Assembly (NCBI GenBank): GCA_001304015.1
Contig: LJUY01000001.1
Coordinates: 141,520 to 205,519 of the forward strand
Direction of reading: 5' to 3'
Length of the DNA stretch: 64,000 nt
From: a candidate division Zixibacteria bacterium SM23_81
GTDB taxonomy: Bacteria; SM23-81
Shown: piece by piece, positions 44,078-60,169 of the stretch
Position numbering within the stretch: position 1 is the stretch's first letter
Layout of the letters: the number at the start of each line of letters is the position of its first letter
Translations under genes and position numbers: made by a program
Notes under the pieces: generated by a model
Seen by the model: the letters and a program-made list of their open reading frames with translations, nothing else
Told to the model about the DNA's origin: nothing
The model's database searches: none

Positions 44078-46909
44078 TTAATCTCGGGGGGATGTGGGGC
44101 TCTTCTTACTGCTTATTGCCTCCTGCCTCCTGCCGGCTGCCACTTGGGTGGATCCGGAAGGAAGGAAGCCACCCCGCTTCACCCCGGTCAACTGCCGATC
44201 GAACTCTCCCACCTGATACGACCCTTCCGACCTGTTGCCCACGCCATCCACTGCCTTTAGGGTATAATAATGCTGAACGCCTGGATCGCCCACCGCTGCG
44301 CTGTCAACAAAGGCCGTCTCCATCGTTCCAGCCAGAGAATCACCCAGCAGTCCCGGGTAAAAGCTGCGGTAAATGATGTAGCGCTCGATCCCCTCGCTGT
44401 TCTCCGGCTCGGTCCAGCCGAGATGAATGTTCCCGGAGGACGACTTGGTCGATCCCTCGAATAGGATGGTCACATCATCCACAGCCTTGGGCGGCATGGT
44501 GATGGCGATCTTTATGGCATCGGCCCTGAGAACATCTCCCTGAGTACTCTCTCCGGTATCCTCAACTCGCACCTCCACATTCTGTCCCGAGGCGAATGGG
44601 CGGTTCCAAAGATGAACCCAGGAACCGCTCCCGGTGTTCTGATTGACGAACACCGAATCGGCATCTATGCCCTCGACGCTCAGCATGTACAACGCGTGAT
44701 TGGTGGCATTGGCGGTATTGGGGACTATCTCATAGATCCGGTAGATGCCCTGTTCTGAGAGGGTGCCTTGGAAACGAGCTTTGGCACCGGGAACCTGATT
44801 GAGGGGTGCCCACCGGCTGCTTGGTCCATAGGCCTGAGCCACGCTGGTGTGCCAGGTGCCCTCCTCCTGATAGTAGAGCGAGTCGTCATTATCGACGATG
44901 ATGAAGTAAGGCTGCACATCTGCGGTGACCAAGATGGGAGCCATGGGCTCGATGGGGTCGTCGCTGTATAGGAACATCTCATCGCTGACCGGACCAATTT
45001 CCTGGGCGTGAAAATGGACCGGCATCTCAATGGACCCCATCCCCGGGATGACCACCGGAAAGCTGACCGGGATGGTCACCTCAGGCAGCAGAGAGCCTAT
45101 TCCCGTGATGGTCAAATCTCCGTAGCCGAGATTTCTCAACCGCAGGTCCAGGGATGCGCTGTCCTCCTTGGGTACGGCCCCGAAGTCCAGGACTTGGTCC
45201 ACAACGAAAAGATCCCTCTCACGCACCAGGGCTGAGAACTTAGCCACATCTGCGCACAGGACCCTTCCTTCCTGGCCATCGCCGCTGGCCTGCAACTGAA
45301 GATAGGTCCCAGCGCCCGGCATCAAATACGAGGTGCTTAGATAGACCCACTCGGCGGCCGGCAGCGGGCTGGTGAACTGAATAGTGTTCACGCAGGTGCC
45401 TTGCTTGAAAACCTTGTAGGTAATCTGCTCGGCGGGATTGGACATCTCCGGGATCTGAACGAAGATATTGAAGGTGGCGGAGTCCTCAAGGTCCGGATAC
45501 CACCGGGCCATAGCCGTATCGCCAGCAGCCAGGGTGGTTACCCGAGAGTCCAGACCCCAGGAGGACTCCCAGGAGCTCGACCAGCTCTTCTGGATTTCAA
45601 CATATCCGGAGTCGACGTTGTCCACAAAGATATCACCGGGTAAAAACTCGATAAATTCCATCGCCTGATTGCCCAGCGTGTCGCAGACCACCACACCCAC
45701 CTTGGCCAGCTGATCCCTGGACAGAGATTCGGTCGTCTCCCATTGATTCGCGCCCGTCGATTGGCAGGGAATCAGCAGATACTCCTCGTAGACATTCTTT
45801 ACAGCCACGAAGGGTACCGGTTGAAAGATCGGCTCGTCGCTGCTGATGCCGAAGGACACCTGGTCTCCTGAAGGAATCTCCCACAGAGCCAGATCTGGGG
45901 CCGTCGTATCGGGCGTTCCCCGCCAGCGCTGCATGGCCTCGATGGCCGTGCAGTAGCGGAAATTCACATCCGGATACATGGCCGCGGCCTCATGGGCCAG
46001 GCTATCGATCTTAGCGATGTCGGTGAGAAACGGCGTCTCCGGAAGATGAGACCATATACAGGCTACTTGGTCGATGCCGGCATTCGCCTGGGCGAAGATG
46101 TTCTCCAAGTTATTACTGCTAATCACCGATCCAAAATAGCGGCAGCGGACATTCCAGCCGGGACCATCTCCGGGAAGTTGATAGTTCACCGGCGAGGGGT
46201 GGTAGGGAACATACTCCAAAGTGGCCTGGGACCAGTCGTAGTTGTTATCAGTTGGCTCCGTCGTGTCGCTGTGAACGCTGGGCGAAGCATTGTGCATGCT
46301 ATAGGGCAGGACGCTGTCCAGTACGGTCTGCCAACCGTTGTCCATGTAATGCCAGCCGCTGCGGAAGGAAACAGGAAAAATCTGTTCTTCCAGCAGAAAC
46401 TGGGCCAGGGTGAAGTTCCAGTCGTCATAGCACTCCATGAAGGTCTGGGATTGGTTCCAGTAGTAGAGCCCGTCGCCGTTGTAGTCGGTCCAGGCGAAGG
46501 TGTGGTAGTGCAGGGACAGCTCGTCGCCATTGATCTGGACGTTGTCGCCGTGGTACTTCTTCATCAGATATAGGGTCATGATGTTGGGCACTGGCACGTT
46601 GGTGTTTGTGGCATATCGGAAGATGTTGCCAGCCATCATCCACCAGGTCATCTTCAGCGGCTGCCCGTAGGAATCGACGAACTGGGCTCGGAAAGCCGGG
46701 TTCATGACCCCGTAAGCATTCCGGGAGGGATTGGTGTACAGGTCGATGTTATAGGTGCAGTGATACGTGCTGGTGCTCATCCCCTCCCAAATGGCCGTGT
46801 CGGAGCCCATCACCAGATAGACCTCGCCTGCCGTAAAGCCCGCCTTGGGTATGAAAAGCATCAAGCAAACGGCGAGCAAAGCTGCTCGTGTTTCCTCCTT
46901 AAAATTCAT
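44078..46909 (-). CDS. Large secreted protein with golvesin-like, ASH-like and FN3 domains
   Basis: A 943-residue exported protein (signal AALLAVCLMLFIPKAGFTAG). Residues ~30-350 form an uncharacterised catalytic-looking region with HYHTFAWTDYNGDG, SFRSGWHYMDNGWQ and CIWSHLPETPFLTDI, reminiscent of polysaccharide-deacetylase-like folds, though the metal triad cannot be assigned. Two golvesin/xanthan-lyase-C-like modules follow (~445-575; ~695-830, FIIVDNDDSLYYQEEGTWHT, LRADAIKIA) around an ASH-like beta domain (LDFGAVPKEDSASLDLRLRN). The end is an FN3 module (IERYIIYRSFYPG, VGEFDRQL) shared with the amidase gene at 49207-51639, then an odd basic tail encoded by heptamer repeats. No PNPFN-type sorting domain is present. 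Probably acts on extracellular glycans; substrate unknown. Confidence 0.7.
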   Translation of the reverse strand: MNFKEETRAALLAVCLMLFIPKAGFTAGEVYLVMGSDTAIWEGMSTSTYHCTYNIDLYTNPSRNAYGVMNPAFRAQFVDSYGQPLKMTWWMMAGNIFRYATNTNVPVPNIMTLYLMKKYHGDNVQINGDELSLHYHTFAWTDYNGDGLYYWNQSQTFMECYDDWNFTLAQFLLEEQIFPVSFRSGWHYMDNGWQTVLDSVLPYSMHNASPSVHSDTTEPTDNNYDWSQATLEYVPYHPSPVNYQLPGDGPGWNVRCRYFGSVISSNNLENIFAQANAGIDQVACIWSHLPETPFLTDIAKIDSLAHEAAAMYPDVNFRYCTAIEAMQRWRGTPDTTAPDLALWEIPSGDQVSFGISSDEPIFQPVPFVAVKNVYEEYLLIPCQSTGANQWETTESLSRDQLAKVGVVVCDTLGNQAMEFIEFLPGDIFVDNVDSGYVEIQKSWSSSWESSWGLDSRVTTLAAGDTAMARWYPDLEDSATFNIFVQIPEMSNPAEQITYKVFKQGTCVNTIQFTSPLPAAEWVYLSTSYLMPGAGTYLQLQASGDGQEGRVLCADVAKFSALVRERDLFVVDQVLDFGAVPKEDSASLDLRLRNLGYGDLTITGIGSLLPEVTIPVSFPVVIPGMGSIEMPVHFHAQEIGPVSDEMFLYSDDPIEPMAPILVTADVQPYFIIVDNDDSLYYQEEGTWHTSVAQAYGPSSRWAPLNQVPGAKARFQGTLSEQGIYRIYEIVPNTANATNHALYMLSVEGIDADSVFVNQNTGSGSWVHLWNRPFASGQNVEVRVEDTGESTQGDVLRADAIKIAITMPPKAVDDVTILFEGSTKSSSGNIHLGWTEPENSEGIERYIIYRSFYPGLLGDSLAGTMETAFVDSAAVGDPGVQHYYTLKAVDGVGNRSEGSYQVGEFDRQLTGVKRGGFLPSGSTQVAAGRRQEAISSKKSPTSPRD
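44100..44141 (-). repeat. Degenerate heptanucleotide tandem repeat at the 3' end of a gene
   Basis: Six consecutive 7-mers on the minus strand: GGCAGCC, GGCAGGA, GGCAGGA, GGCAATA, AGCAGTA, AGAAGAG. They encode part of the basic tail of the 943-residue protein. Such (GGCAGGA)-type short repeats are scattered in many bacterial genomes and are usually intergenic. Confidence 0.75.
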
Positions 46910-47093: not shown

Positions 47094-48041
47094 CTATGGT
47101 TTCTCCTCTCCGAACAAATCACCGGTGAACAGGCTGTCCTCATCCTCTACCCGAATGGGAAGCTCCCCGAGCTCGGGGTATTCTTCCACCAGTCCCCTCC
47201 AGAAGACCTTGTCGATGGGCAAATCCAGCTTGTACCTGAGCATGACGGCGTTGGCCACGGCCTTAGCCCGGTAATGGTTGTTCATATAAACATAAACCGT
47301 CTTGGTCAGCTCTTTAACCTGATTCAAGCCGCCCACTAAGGGATTCAGCTCGTCAGAGGAATATAGGTAGTTATACTTCTCTGCGGCGGTTTTGTGCCGG
47401 AACCATTTCTCGATATTCCGTCCGTGCATGCGCAAGTAGAAGATGGGGCCGATGGGCTTGAAGGACTGATGGATGGAAAAGCGAAACTTAGGCTCATCGA
47501 TGTACACCAGGCTGGCTTTATATCTTTTCAGAACCTCCTCAGTGGCCCTTAGGTTGTCGCTCCAACCCCTATGGCGCAGCTCCACCGCCATGGGAAACTC
47601 CTGGAAGGCGTTTAATGTTCTGTCCAGGTGATCTAAATTCTTCTCTTCAAAATAAAAGCGAGGGGGAAATTGCACCAGCAGACACCCGAGCTTCTTGGCC
47701 TTGACAAGGGGCTCCAGTCCCTTTTTGAACAGATCCACGTCGGCCTCTGTGACGCGTGAATCCCGTCCTGTGGTCTGGGCGAACATCTCCGGGTGGGTGA
47801 ATTTCTGCCAGAGTTTGATGGTAAAATCGAAGTTGGCCGGCGTCTTCATGGCCCAGTTATGCACCACGTTTGGAACTGGGGGACGATAGAAGGTCGAGTT
47901 TACCTCCACGGTATTAAACCGATCTGAATAGTAGCTCAGCTCATCCACTTTGCCGGGAGGATAAAAGACGCCATTCCAGCTGCCCTCGCCATAGGTGCGG
48001 TACGACCAGCCAGAAGTGCCAATGCGCAAACTCTCATTCAT
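47094..48041 (-). CDS. DUF72 family protein (YecE-like)
   Basis: A 315-residue TIM-barrel-like protein. Family motifs: LRIGTSGWSYRTYGEGSWNG at the start, YYSDRFNTVEVNSTFYRPP, FDFTIKLWQKFTHPEMF, LLVQFPPRFYF, AVELRHRGW and YVYMNNHYRAKAVANA near the end. The molecular function is not established; a link to DNA repair has been suggested for some members. A consensus promoter is directly upstream and AGGGGTG precedes the ATG, so it is transcribed alone. The insertion sequence at 48216-49070 lies just upstream but leaves the promoter intact. Confidence 0.9.
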   Translation of the reverse strand: MNESLRIGTSGWSYRTYGEGSWNGVFYPPGKVDELSYYSDRFNTVEVNSTFYRPPVPNVVHNWAMKTPANFDFTIKLWQKFTHPEMFAQTTGRDSRVTEADVDLFKKGLEPLVKAKKLGCLLVQFPPRFYFEEKNLDHLDRTLNAFQEFPMAVELRHRGWSDNLRATEEVLKRYKASLVYIDEPKFRFSIHQSFKPIGPIFYLRMHGRNIEKWFRHKTAAEKYNYLYSSDELNPLVGGLNQVKELTKTVYVYMNNHYRAKAVANAVMLRYKLDLPIDKVFWRGLVEEYPELGELPIRVEDEDSLFTGDLFGEEKP

Positions 48042-56288: not shown

Positions 56289-58697
56289 TCATCTTTTGCG
56301 TTTCTTACGCCTCTTTAGCTTCTGCTCAACCTTAGCGATTCGTTTCTTCACCCCAATCACGCTATCGGGATTCAGGGAGATGGAGTCGATGCCTTGCTCA
56401 ACGAGAAAGGCAGCGAAATCGGGATAATCGCTGGGCGCCTGACCACATATGCCGACCTTCGTCTTCGCTTTATGCGCCTCCTTGAGCACACTTCTGATCA
56501 ATCTCTTGACCGTCTCGTTTCTCTCGTCGAACAGGTCGGCCAGCTGTGAAGAATCCCGATCCACACCCAAGGCAAGCTGGGTAAGGTCGTTGCTGCCGAT
56601 GGAGAAGCCGTCGAAGCGCTTGGCAAACTGATCCGCCTGGACCACATTTGATGGGATCTCGCACATCACATAGACCTCAAGCCCATTTTTGCCGCGCTTT
56701 AGCCCGTTTTTGGCCAGAACGGCCAGCACCCGATCTGCCTCCTTCACAGTTCTGCAGAAGGGAATCATGATGAGAACGTTGGTCAGACCGATCTGCTCAC
56801 GAACGCGCCGGATGGCACGGCACTCCAGCTCAAAGCCCTCCCTATAGCCCTCGCTGTAATACCGGGAGGCACCCCGCCAGCCGAGCATGGGATTTGACTC
56901 CTCTGGCTCGAATTGCTTTCCGCCGATGAGGTTGGCGTACTCGTTGGTTTTGAAATCGCTCATTCTCACGATGACCGGGTGGGGGTATTGCGAGACGGCG
57001 ATCTTGGCGATGCCCCGGGCCAGATGATCCACAAAATATTCCGTCTTGTCCTTGTATTGCCAGGTCATCTCCTGGATTTGCTTGCGGGTGTCCCTGTCCT
57101 TCAGCTCATTGAAGTGAATCAGGGCCATGGGATGGATCTTGATGATGTTGTTGATGATGAATTCCATCCTGGCCAGGCCCACACCCTCGGTGGGAAGCCG
57201 CCACCAACTCATGGCCGCCGAGGGGCTGGCGATGTTCAGCATGACCTGTGTCTTGGTCTTGGGGACATCGAGGCTGACCTGCGTTTCCTGGAATGCCAGG
57301 ATGCCATCATAGACATACCCCTGATCACCCTCGGCGCAGGAAAGGGTGATTTCCTGACCGTCCTTCAGGACTTTGGTGGCCTCCCCGGTTCCCACAACGG
57401 CCGGTATGCCCAGCTCGCGGCTGACGATGGCCGCATGGCAAGTGCGCCCACCGTAGTCGGTTATAATTCCCGCCGAACGCCTCATGATGGGCACCCAGTC
57501 CGGGTCGGTCATCTCGGTGACCAGCAATGAACCATCTTTAAACTGGTCGATGTCATCGGAACTTTTTATCAGATTGACCTTGCCCACGGCGATGGCCTCG
57601 CCAATGCTAAGCCCGGTGAGAAGCCTTTTCCCTTTCTCCTTCAACGTATAGCTTTTCAGGGAAGATGCCTCCCTGAGGGACTGGACGGTTTCGGGACGGG
57701 CCTGGACGATAAACAAGCCGCCGTTTTTCCCGTTCTTAGCCCACTCCATGTCCATAGGCTTGCCATAGTGTTTCTCGATGTCCACCGCCCACTGGGCCAA
57801 TTGCAGGATTTCCTTATCCTTCAATACGAAAGACTGCCGCTCCTGCTGCGTGGTGCGGACATTCTCGACGGCTCTCCCACCGCGCGCGCTGTAAATCATC
57901 TTTTTGGCCTTGCCTCCCAGGTTCTTCTCGATGATGGGCGTGAGTTGCTTCTGTCTCAACACGGGTTTGAAGACGACGTATTCGTCTGGAGTGATGGAGC
58001 CCTGAACGACATTCTCCCCCAATCCCCAGGCGCCGTTGATGACCACCACATCGGGAAAACCGGTCTCCGTGTCGATGGAGAACATCACCCCTGCACTGGC
58101 CTTGTCGGAACGGACCATCTTCTGAACGCCGATGGAAAGGGCCACATCCATGTGATCGAATCCCTTTTCTTCACGGTAGCTTATGGCCCGGTTGGTAAAT
58201 AACGAGGCATAACATTTACGGCAGGCTTCTATCAATGCCTTCTCGCCTTTTACGTTCAGGAAAGTCTCCTGTTGCCCGGCGAAGCTGGCCTCAGGAAGGT
58301 CCTCCGCCGTGGCGCTGCTTCTGACGGCCACGTCCACATTTTTCATGCGGTAGCGTCTGCCCAGCTCTCGGTAGGCAGCCCTGATCTGCTCAGCGATCTC
58401 ATCGGGGAATTGAGAGTCCAGAAAAAGCCGCCGAATCGATTTACCCACCTGACTAAGGGATTTTGACCCGCTTTGCAGGTCTTTTACTATGGCGTGGACT
58501 TTTTCCCTTATCTTGTTATCATCTAGGAATTTCCAATAGGCCGCAGAGGTGGTGGCAAAGCCATTGGGCACGCTGATGCCCTTCTTTTTTAAGGTGGAAA
58601 TCATCTCTCCCAATGATGCGTTCTTCCCTCCCACCGCGGGCACATCTTTGGACCTCAAGTCTGCGAACCAGCGAACATAGATTTTTTTCTTGGCCAT
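56289..58697 (-). CDS. ppsA: Phosphoenolpyruvate synthase
   Basis: Makes PEP from pyruvate and ATP, giving AMP and phosphate, for gluconeogenesis. The 802-residue protein has the ATP-grasp-like N-terminal domain (VPAVGGKNASLGEMI, VAVRSSATAEDLPEASFAGQ), the phosphohistidine domain with the swivelling His in GGRTCHAAIVSRELGIPAVV, and the PEP/pyruvate barrel with GSNDLTQLALGVDRDSS and the acid-base Cys in VGICGQAPSD. Length and order match PpsA rather than PPDK. The C terminus is a very basic tail (KRRKKRKR). It has its own promoter and terminator. Confidence 0.96.
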   Translation of the reverse strand: MAKKKIYVRWFADLRSKDVPAVGGKNASLGEMISTLKKKGISVPNGFATTSAAYWKFLDDNKIREKVHAIVKDLQSGSKSLSQVGKSIRRLFLDSQFPDEIAEQIRAAYRELGRRYRMKNVDVAVRSSATAEDLPEASFAGQQETFLNVKGEKALIEACRKCYASLFTNRAISYREEKGFDHMDVALSIGVQKMVRSDKASAGVMFSIDTETGFPDVVVINGAWGLGENVVQGSITPDEYVVFKPVLRQKQLTPIIEKNLGGKAKKMIYSARGGRAVENVRTTQQERQSFVLKDKEILQLAQWAVDIEKHYGKPMDMEWAKNGKNGGLFIVQARPETVQSLREASSLKSYTLKEKGKRLLTGLSIGEAIAVGKVNLIKSSDDIDQFKDGSLLVTEMTDPDWVPIMRRSAGIITDYGGRTCHAAIVSRELGIPAVVGTGEATKVLKDGQEITLSCAEGDQGYVYDGILAFQETQVSLDVPKTKTQVMLNIASPSAAMSWWRLPTEGVGLARMEFIINNIIKIHPMALIHFNELKDRDTRKQIQEMTWQYKDKTEYFVDHLARGIAKIAVSQYPHPVIVRMSDFKTNEYANLIGGKQFEPEESNPMLGWRGASRYYSEGYREGFELECRAIRRVREQIGLTNVLIMIPFCRTVKEADRVLAVLAKNGLKRGKNGLEVYVMCEIPSNVVQADQFAKRFDGFSIGSNDLTQLALGVDRDSSQLADLFDERNETVKRLIRSVLKEAHKAKTKVGICGQAPSDYPDFAAFLVEQGIDSISLNPDSVIGVKKRIAKVEQKLKRRKKRKR

Positions 58698-58990: not shown

Positions 58991-59641
58991 TCAAGAGCCC
59001 TTTTCCAAATTCAAAGCCATCAATACTTTAGCCACGAGGGTTGTCTCCGGCTGGGTGCCCTCGAATTGGATCTCCTCGTTTATAACCGTTTTGGGCACTG
59101 CCATGAGACGATATTTATTTACCAGATGGGGAAATTCGCCCGCGCTGACCATGTTGGCCGCGATTAGATCCGAGGCGATAGCCAGTTTGTGAGCCAGCGA
59201 CACCGCTGGCGAACAGTAGGGTCAGGTGGGAGTGACGAAAACCTGGATATGCACCGGCCGGTTCAGCCTGGAAAGCTGCTGCAAACTCTCGGCACTTAGC
59301 GCTGGCTCACCGGAAGAGACAGTTTTAATGGCCTCCAAAAGAGAGGCGAATTCGTACCATGCCGGCAAACCGTAAAAACGCACTCCATAGTCTTTTTTGC
59401 CCTCTACGACGATGGCGGGAATTTTATCAATATGGTATTCCTCGGCTTTTTCTTTGTCTATCTGGAAGTTATAGGTTTCCAGAGCGATTGAATCAGAAAG
59501 AGAGGCCGTCTCTTTGGCCAGCTACGTATTTTGGGCGCAGGTGGGACACTTGATCTGCTGGGTGAAGACCACCAGTTTCACATTCTCAGAGAGAGATTTG
59601 AGATCACCCTCTACCTGTTGGCGGACCTTTTCGTCTAACAT
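58991..59641 (-). CDS. Two-thioredoxin-fold protein disulfide oxidoreductase, candidate selenoprotein; in-frame TAG also present
   Basis: One frame from ATG 59641 to 58991 encodes 216 residues related to PDO / glutaredoxin-like proteins. Fold 1 has VVFTQQIKCPTCAQNT with CPTC at codons 32-35, then IDKIPAIVVEGKKDYGVRFY. Fold 2 has VHIQVFVTPT, then TGA (59224-59222, codon 140), then PYCSPAVSLAHKLA and AVPKTVINE. TGA stands exactly where the first Cys of CPYC is expected, giving a UPYC redox centre if read as selenocysteine; a SECIS-like hairpin follows. A second stop, TAG (59524-59522, codon 40), lies five codons after the first CxxC, where relatives have a polar residue. So either the gene is a pseudogene or the TAG is a point mutation or base error in a true selenoprotein gene. 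AGGAGGT lies ~12 nt before the ATG. Confidence 0.75.
59193..59224 (-). promoter_or_regulatory. Candidate bacterial SECIS element with its TGA codon
   Basis: After TGA (59224-59222) come 11 bases, then GCCAGCG (59210-59204), loop GTGT (59203-59200) and CGCTGGC (59199-59193): a perfect 7-bp GC-rich stem. The apical loop starts 18 nt after the TGA and opens with GU, as in known bacterial SECIS elements such as that of E. coli fdhF, where a GUCU loop lies at a similar distance. Confidence 0.65.
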
Positions 59642-59724
59642 GATGACGGGGATACCTCCTCTGGAGACTGTCTGTGATGTAATGAAATATTGTTAGTTTC
59701 TAAAGTATTTTCTCATATGAAATC

Positions 59725-60042
59725 TCAACCCAGCACACCATCCAGCCATGACAGGTAGTCCTTGCTCCCCTGGTTTATGGTCATGGCCAGTATCTCCGGA
59801 ACCTCATAGGGGTGCTTCTCCCCGATGGCCGCCTCCACCTTGTCGTAAAGATCTTGCCGAGTCTTGATCAGGCACAGCCACTCCTGGGTGGTCTCCACCT
59901 GGCCTTTCCACCGGTAGGTGCTAAAGATAGGCCCTACCACCTGCACGCAGGCCGCCAGGGAAGATTGCACCAGTCTTTGGCCCAGCTCTCGGGCCCCCTC
60001 CTCGCTGTCCATGGTTGTCGAAACAACCAAGTATTGTCCCAT
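59725..60042 (-). CDS. cutA: Divalent-cation tolerance protein CutA
   Basis: A 105-residue trimeric PII-like protein. It shows the family features YLVVSTTMDSEEGARELGQR, LAACVQVVGPIFSTYRWKGQ, EWLCLIKTRQDLYDKVEAAI and HPYEVPEILAM. ATG 60042 is chosen because AAGGAAA precedes it and the conserved sequence starts there. Despite the name its cellular role is not well established. The disulfide oxidoreductase gene follows 83 bp downstream. Confidence 0.93.
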   Translation of the reverse strand: MGQYLVVSTTMDSEEGARELGQRLVQSSLAACVQVVGPIFSTYRWKGQVETTQEWLCLIKTRQDLYDKVEAAIGEKHPYEVPEILAMTINQGSKDYLSWLDGVLG

Positions 60043-60072
60043 TATGCTGCCATTTCCTTGTGTATGTTTGAG

Positions 60073-60123
60073 AAAAAAAGCGACGCAAGTTGGCAGATCC
60101 TTGCGCTCTGCTCCTTGCGTCGC
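60073..60123 (-). terminator. Rho-independent terminator after the ferredoxin gene
   Basis: GCGACGCAAG pairs perfectly with CTTGCGTCGC (10 bp, 24-nt loop) and is followed on the minus strand by TTTTTTT. Confidence 0.75.
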
Positions 60124-60169
60124 AGAAAAGGTCACACAGTGAGAGAATAGTGTTGCCGCACGTTGTCAG

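Follow-up and report, generated by a model that had tools for sequence, protein, structure and literature searches.

A gene on the minus strand of the window (the whole 64-kb stretch of DNA that was analysed), flanked by genes for a CutA1 protein and a PEP-synthase/PPDK-type enzyme, is by its predicted product a protein disulfide oxidoreductase (PDO) of family TIGR02187, and probably a genuine Sec-type one (Table 1). With X substituted at codon 40 and C at codon 140, its profile score is 258.7 bits against a curated cut-off of 185, which upholds the two-unit thioredoxin-fold protein proposed in a preliminary description of this DNA. Both redox motifs are present, CPTC in the first unit and UPYC in the second, and the conserved proline of each unit is kept as P75 and P183. 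Homology to the solved PDOs 1j08, 1a8l, 2ayt, 2ywm and 2hls extends over both units, with E values down to 3e-43, and where 1j08 has CPYC as its second motif, the window gene has UPYC. Homologue searches returned no relatives closer than 61% identity, and the only other genome of the same family that was examined is without a copy of the gene.

Table 1. Features of the PDO locus, in window positions.
Feature	Position	Strand	Basis
CutA1 divalent-cation tolerance protein, upstream neighbour	59725..60135	-	PF03091
Probable ribosome-binding site AGGAGGT, 12 nt before ATG 59641	59654..59660	-	sequence
PDO gene of 216 codons and a terminal TGA (58993-58991), encoding two thioredoxin-fold units	58991..59641	-	TIGR02187, 258.7 bits; best homologues 51-61% identical
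First redox motif CPTC, codons 32-35	59537..59548	-	translation; both Cys at least 97% conserved
In-frame TAG, codon 40, just behind CPTC	59522..59524	-	translation and alignment
TGG (Trp), codon 95	59357..59359	-	all other aligned homologues that have a residue here carry Gly
Second redox motif UPYC, codons 140-143, putative Sec codon TGA 59224-59222	59213..59224	-	homologue comparison
SECIS-like hairpin GCCAGCG-GTGT-CGCTGGC, whose loop begins 18 nt past the TGA	59193..59210	-	sequence, shuffles, homologue comparison
PEP-synthase/PPDK-type enzyme, 802 aa, downstream neighbour	56289..58697	-	PF01326/PF02896/PF00391

By translation and alignment, the TGA takes the place of the leading Cys in the second CPYC, as had been reported. 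When about 110 homologues were compared, the exchange between Cys and Sec that the preliminary description proposed to look for was seen at this exact codon, which is TGA in 11 other genes and Cys in about 100. The Sec forms are scattered over the tree, where well-supported branches force at least six changes; the window gene is placed, without strong support, near Cys forms, and its nearest relative in the tree, from Poribacteria, has Cys at codon 140. In one Chloroflexota homologue (L089, near 1079-1081) it is the second Cys of the motif, not the first, that TGA replaces (CPYU), which could reflect Sec, decay or error.

The hairpin behind the TGA was likewise found as first described, with a 7-bp stem beginning 11 nt past the codon and a GTGT loop beginning at 18 nt. 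Approximately one in 2000 synonymous-codon shuffles matches it at the same position with G at the start of the loop (p_syn 0.0005); under looser criteria, accepting 7 bp anywhere 6-24 nt downstream, 6% of shuffles suffice. Hairpins were also scored across the homologues, counting those that begin between 8 and 15 nt past the codon and whose loop of 3-7 nt has G among its first two bases. Among the 12 TGA genes, 8 scored at least 14, as did 7 of the 100 Cys genes (Fisher p = 5e-6, from several score thresholds that gave p values from 0.03 to 5e-6, and with the relatedness of the genes only partly corrected). In half of the 12 TGA genes a stem six or seven pairs long starts at exactly offset 11, formed by differing sequences (GCCAGCG/CGCTGGC, CCGGGC/GCCTGG, GCAAGC/GCTTGC and CCAGGC/GCCTGG). 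It is this position- and loop-specific hairpin only that separates Sec from Cys genes, and not energy: the folding energy of the 42 nt downstream, taken alone, does not distinguish them. The published mark of a SECIS element is a small apical loop containing G (PMC1088965), and the GTGT loop of the window gene contains G, as expected of a Sec-type PDO.

The genome search suggested in the preliminary description recovered selC, selB, selA and selD, all four in one cluster within about 6 kb of a single contig. This contig matches the window in tetranucleotide composition at 0.91-0.93, against 0.68-0.77 for other genomes, and its SelD has an in-frame TGA of its own, within the motif GUAAK. Because the full Sec machinery is present, TGA occupies the same codon in 11 homologues and SECIS-like hairpins are enriched behind it, the original proposal that UGA-140 at the redox site is a Sec codon is well supported by sequence comparison.

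Two other genes beside the sel cluster contain in-frame TGA codons. An HdrA gene has one at 47604 (C7, minus strand; L046), giving MDCSIUILGPKM with a CxxU motif, a known Sec form of HdrA, and a strong hairpin follows. A UshA-like gene has one at 45324 (C7, minus strand; L046), giving MEPSGURGCRYGG; it scores 138 bits against NCBIfam NF041198 (UshA_like_PCGU), below the cut-off of 275, and its PSGU-containing product is predicted to be a divergent relative of this known selenoprotein family.

Contrary to the earlier claim, the frame of the PDO gene is not continuous. The UAG at codon 40, which the preliminary description overlooked, would halt translation once 39 residues are made, and the sequence gives no ground for inferring an intact selenoprotein; the open frame that marks a Sec-type PDO is therefore lacking. 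The genome search likewise listed one TGA and one TAG within the gene. At codon 40, 49 of 107 aligned rows have Gln and 22 have Glu, and none of the 106 other rows has a stop there. Since Gln is commonest and stops are otherwise absent, a change from CAG to TAG, from a presumed Gln ancestor, is the simplest history. The Trp at codon 95 is a second oddity; among 94 similarly divergent rows, just 4 show any change at columns that are at least 99% conserved.

Pyrrolysine or general recoding of UAG was considered and rejected. The best match to PylS in the genome scores 19.8 bits against a cut-off of 178, a CUA anticodon is absent among the tRNAs found (in a draft without some tRNA species), so that neither component of pyrrolysine decoding was detected, the MttB-family gene has no in-frame TAG, and long frames elsewhere are clean. 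Decoding of UAG-40 by tRNA-Sec is ruled out by its anticodon, UCA, which reads UGA.

Apart from the stop at codon 40 and the Trp at codon 95, the gene shows signs of constraint: coding bias and GC3 are normal, there are no frameshifts or indels, and both units have the usual conservation, with an N/C identity ratio of 0.92 that lies inside the family range, so the N-terminal unit has diverged no more than usual. The normal coding bias and GC3 and the absence of indels indicate that the gene was under constraint until recently.

We therefore favour, with a probability of about 0.62, a genuine Sec-type PDO gene that was selected until recently and is now interrupted by a nonsense mutation. The N-terminal CPTC unit and the C-terminal UPYC unit would have formed a cytosolic dithiol/selenol-disulfide relay, with UGA-140 presumably decoded until recently through SelB, tRNA-Sec and the hairpin at 59210-59193. 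The nonsense change at codon 40, most simply CAG to TAG, would stop translation after CPTC, and the copy is thus most likely freshly inactivated. The redox motifs, the two stop codons, the sel genes, the pattern across the family and the hairpin were observed directly; Sec decoding in vivo, the Gln ancestor and the loss of function of this copy are inferred. Against this reading, a single base error in the draft, or sequence from a minority strain, would yield an identical TAG, one stop with one odd residue amounts to little decay, and the sole other PDO copy in the genome is not an obvious cytosolic substitute.

The first of these leads to the main rival, to which we give perhaps one chance in four: that the TAG stems from the assembly, the consensus or a minority strain, and that the organism itself has an uninterrupted, working Sec-PDO of the known kind. 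The source is a draft genome of 99 contigs, 92.6% complete and probably a MAG; across about 50% protein divergence nothing else breaks the frame, none of the four active-site positions has been lost, coding bias is normal, and CAG, a common codon of homologues at position 40, is one step from TAG. Yet no further interrupted gene turned up when the 64-kb window was scanned for coding bias, which suggests that base errors are uncommon here, and G95W would be a second odd change. Widespread base errors in the window were dismissed on the same scan, in which four of the five in-frame stops flagged were antisense shadows or belonged to adjacent genes.

It is unlikely that the C-terminal UPYC unit is translated alone, for instance from GTG-130 (59254) as an 87-residue single-domain Sec thioredoxin, or that some readthrough of UAG-40 occurs. 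GTG-130 coincides with the first strand of the C-terminal unit, residue 130 is also where the alignment with the 85-aa single-domain thioredoxin 1fo5 begins, and this unit and the hairpin are intact; against this, ribosome-binding-like sequence ahead of internal starts is weak, the N-terminal unit is not over-diverged, and for readthrough no suppressor tRNA or pylS was found. Similarly little credence is due to the related proposal that the gene is expressed despite UAG-40, whether by programmed UAG readthrough with Sec then inserted at UGA-140, or from GTG-130 as an independent Sec thioredoxin domain derived from a two-unit PDO. Least probable of all is simple decay of a Cys gene in which TGA never encoded Sec, since, for all that one gene has two stops and the Poribacteria relative has Cys, the TGA occupies the single codon at which it recurs in 11 other genes, the hairpin is rare among synonymous shuffles, the genome decodes Sec, and nothing else disrupts the 216 codons.

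A two-fold PDO-type selenoprotein is not, as had been supposed, unusual. The NCBIfam model TIGR02187 is named "PDO_seleno_TRX", the family is listed with UxxC as 'homolog of AhpF N-terminal domain (Grx-like)', e.g. ABB15282.1, in reviews of prokaryotic selenoproteins (PMC9312934, PMC13188914), and a 2006 paper (PMC1794560) described members from Carboxydothermus and Symbiobacterium. The window gene shares family, UxxC form and two-unit layout with these selenoproteins, and differs from them in the extra UAG at codon 40 and the Trp at invariant Gly-95. It is one more member of the known Sec-PDO family, probably disrupted, and one more lineage in the scattered distribution of Sec. Gain and loss of bacterial selenoproteins have been described previously (PMC1794560), and the locus may offer a snapshot of a selenoprotein gene under loss, its Sec codon and SECIS still fresh. 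It is also a warning that searches for in-frame TGA can overlook a further, ordinary stop codon within that frame.

The paralogue in the same genome (C38:23534-24160) is 48% identical to the window gene and uninterrupted, with the motifs CQYC and CPYC; unlike the window gene, it is without Sec and has an N-terminal extension resembling a signal peptide. Judged by eye from this extension it appears to be exported, and so may not replace the cytosolic Sec copy. The paralogue (L045 2424-3164) adjoins a gene that resembles, by eye, the rubrerythrin type.
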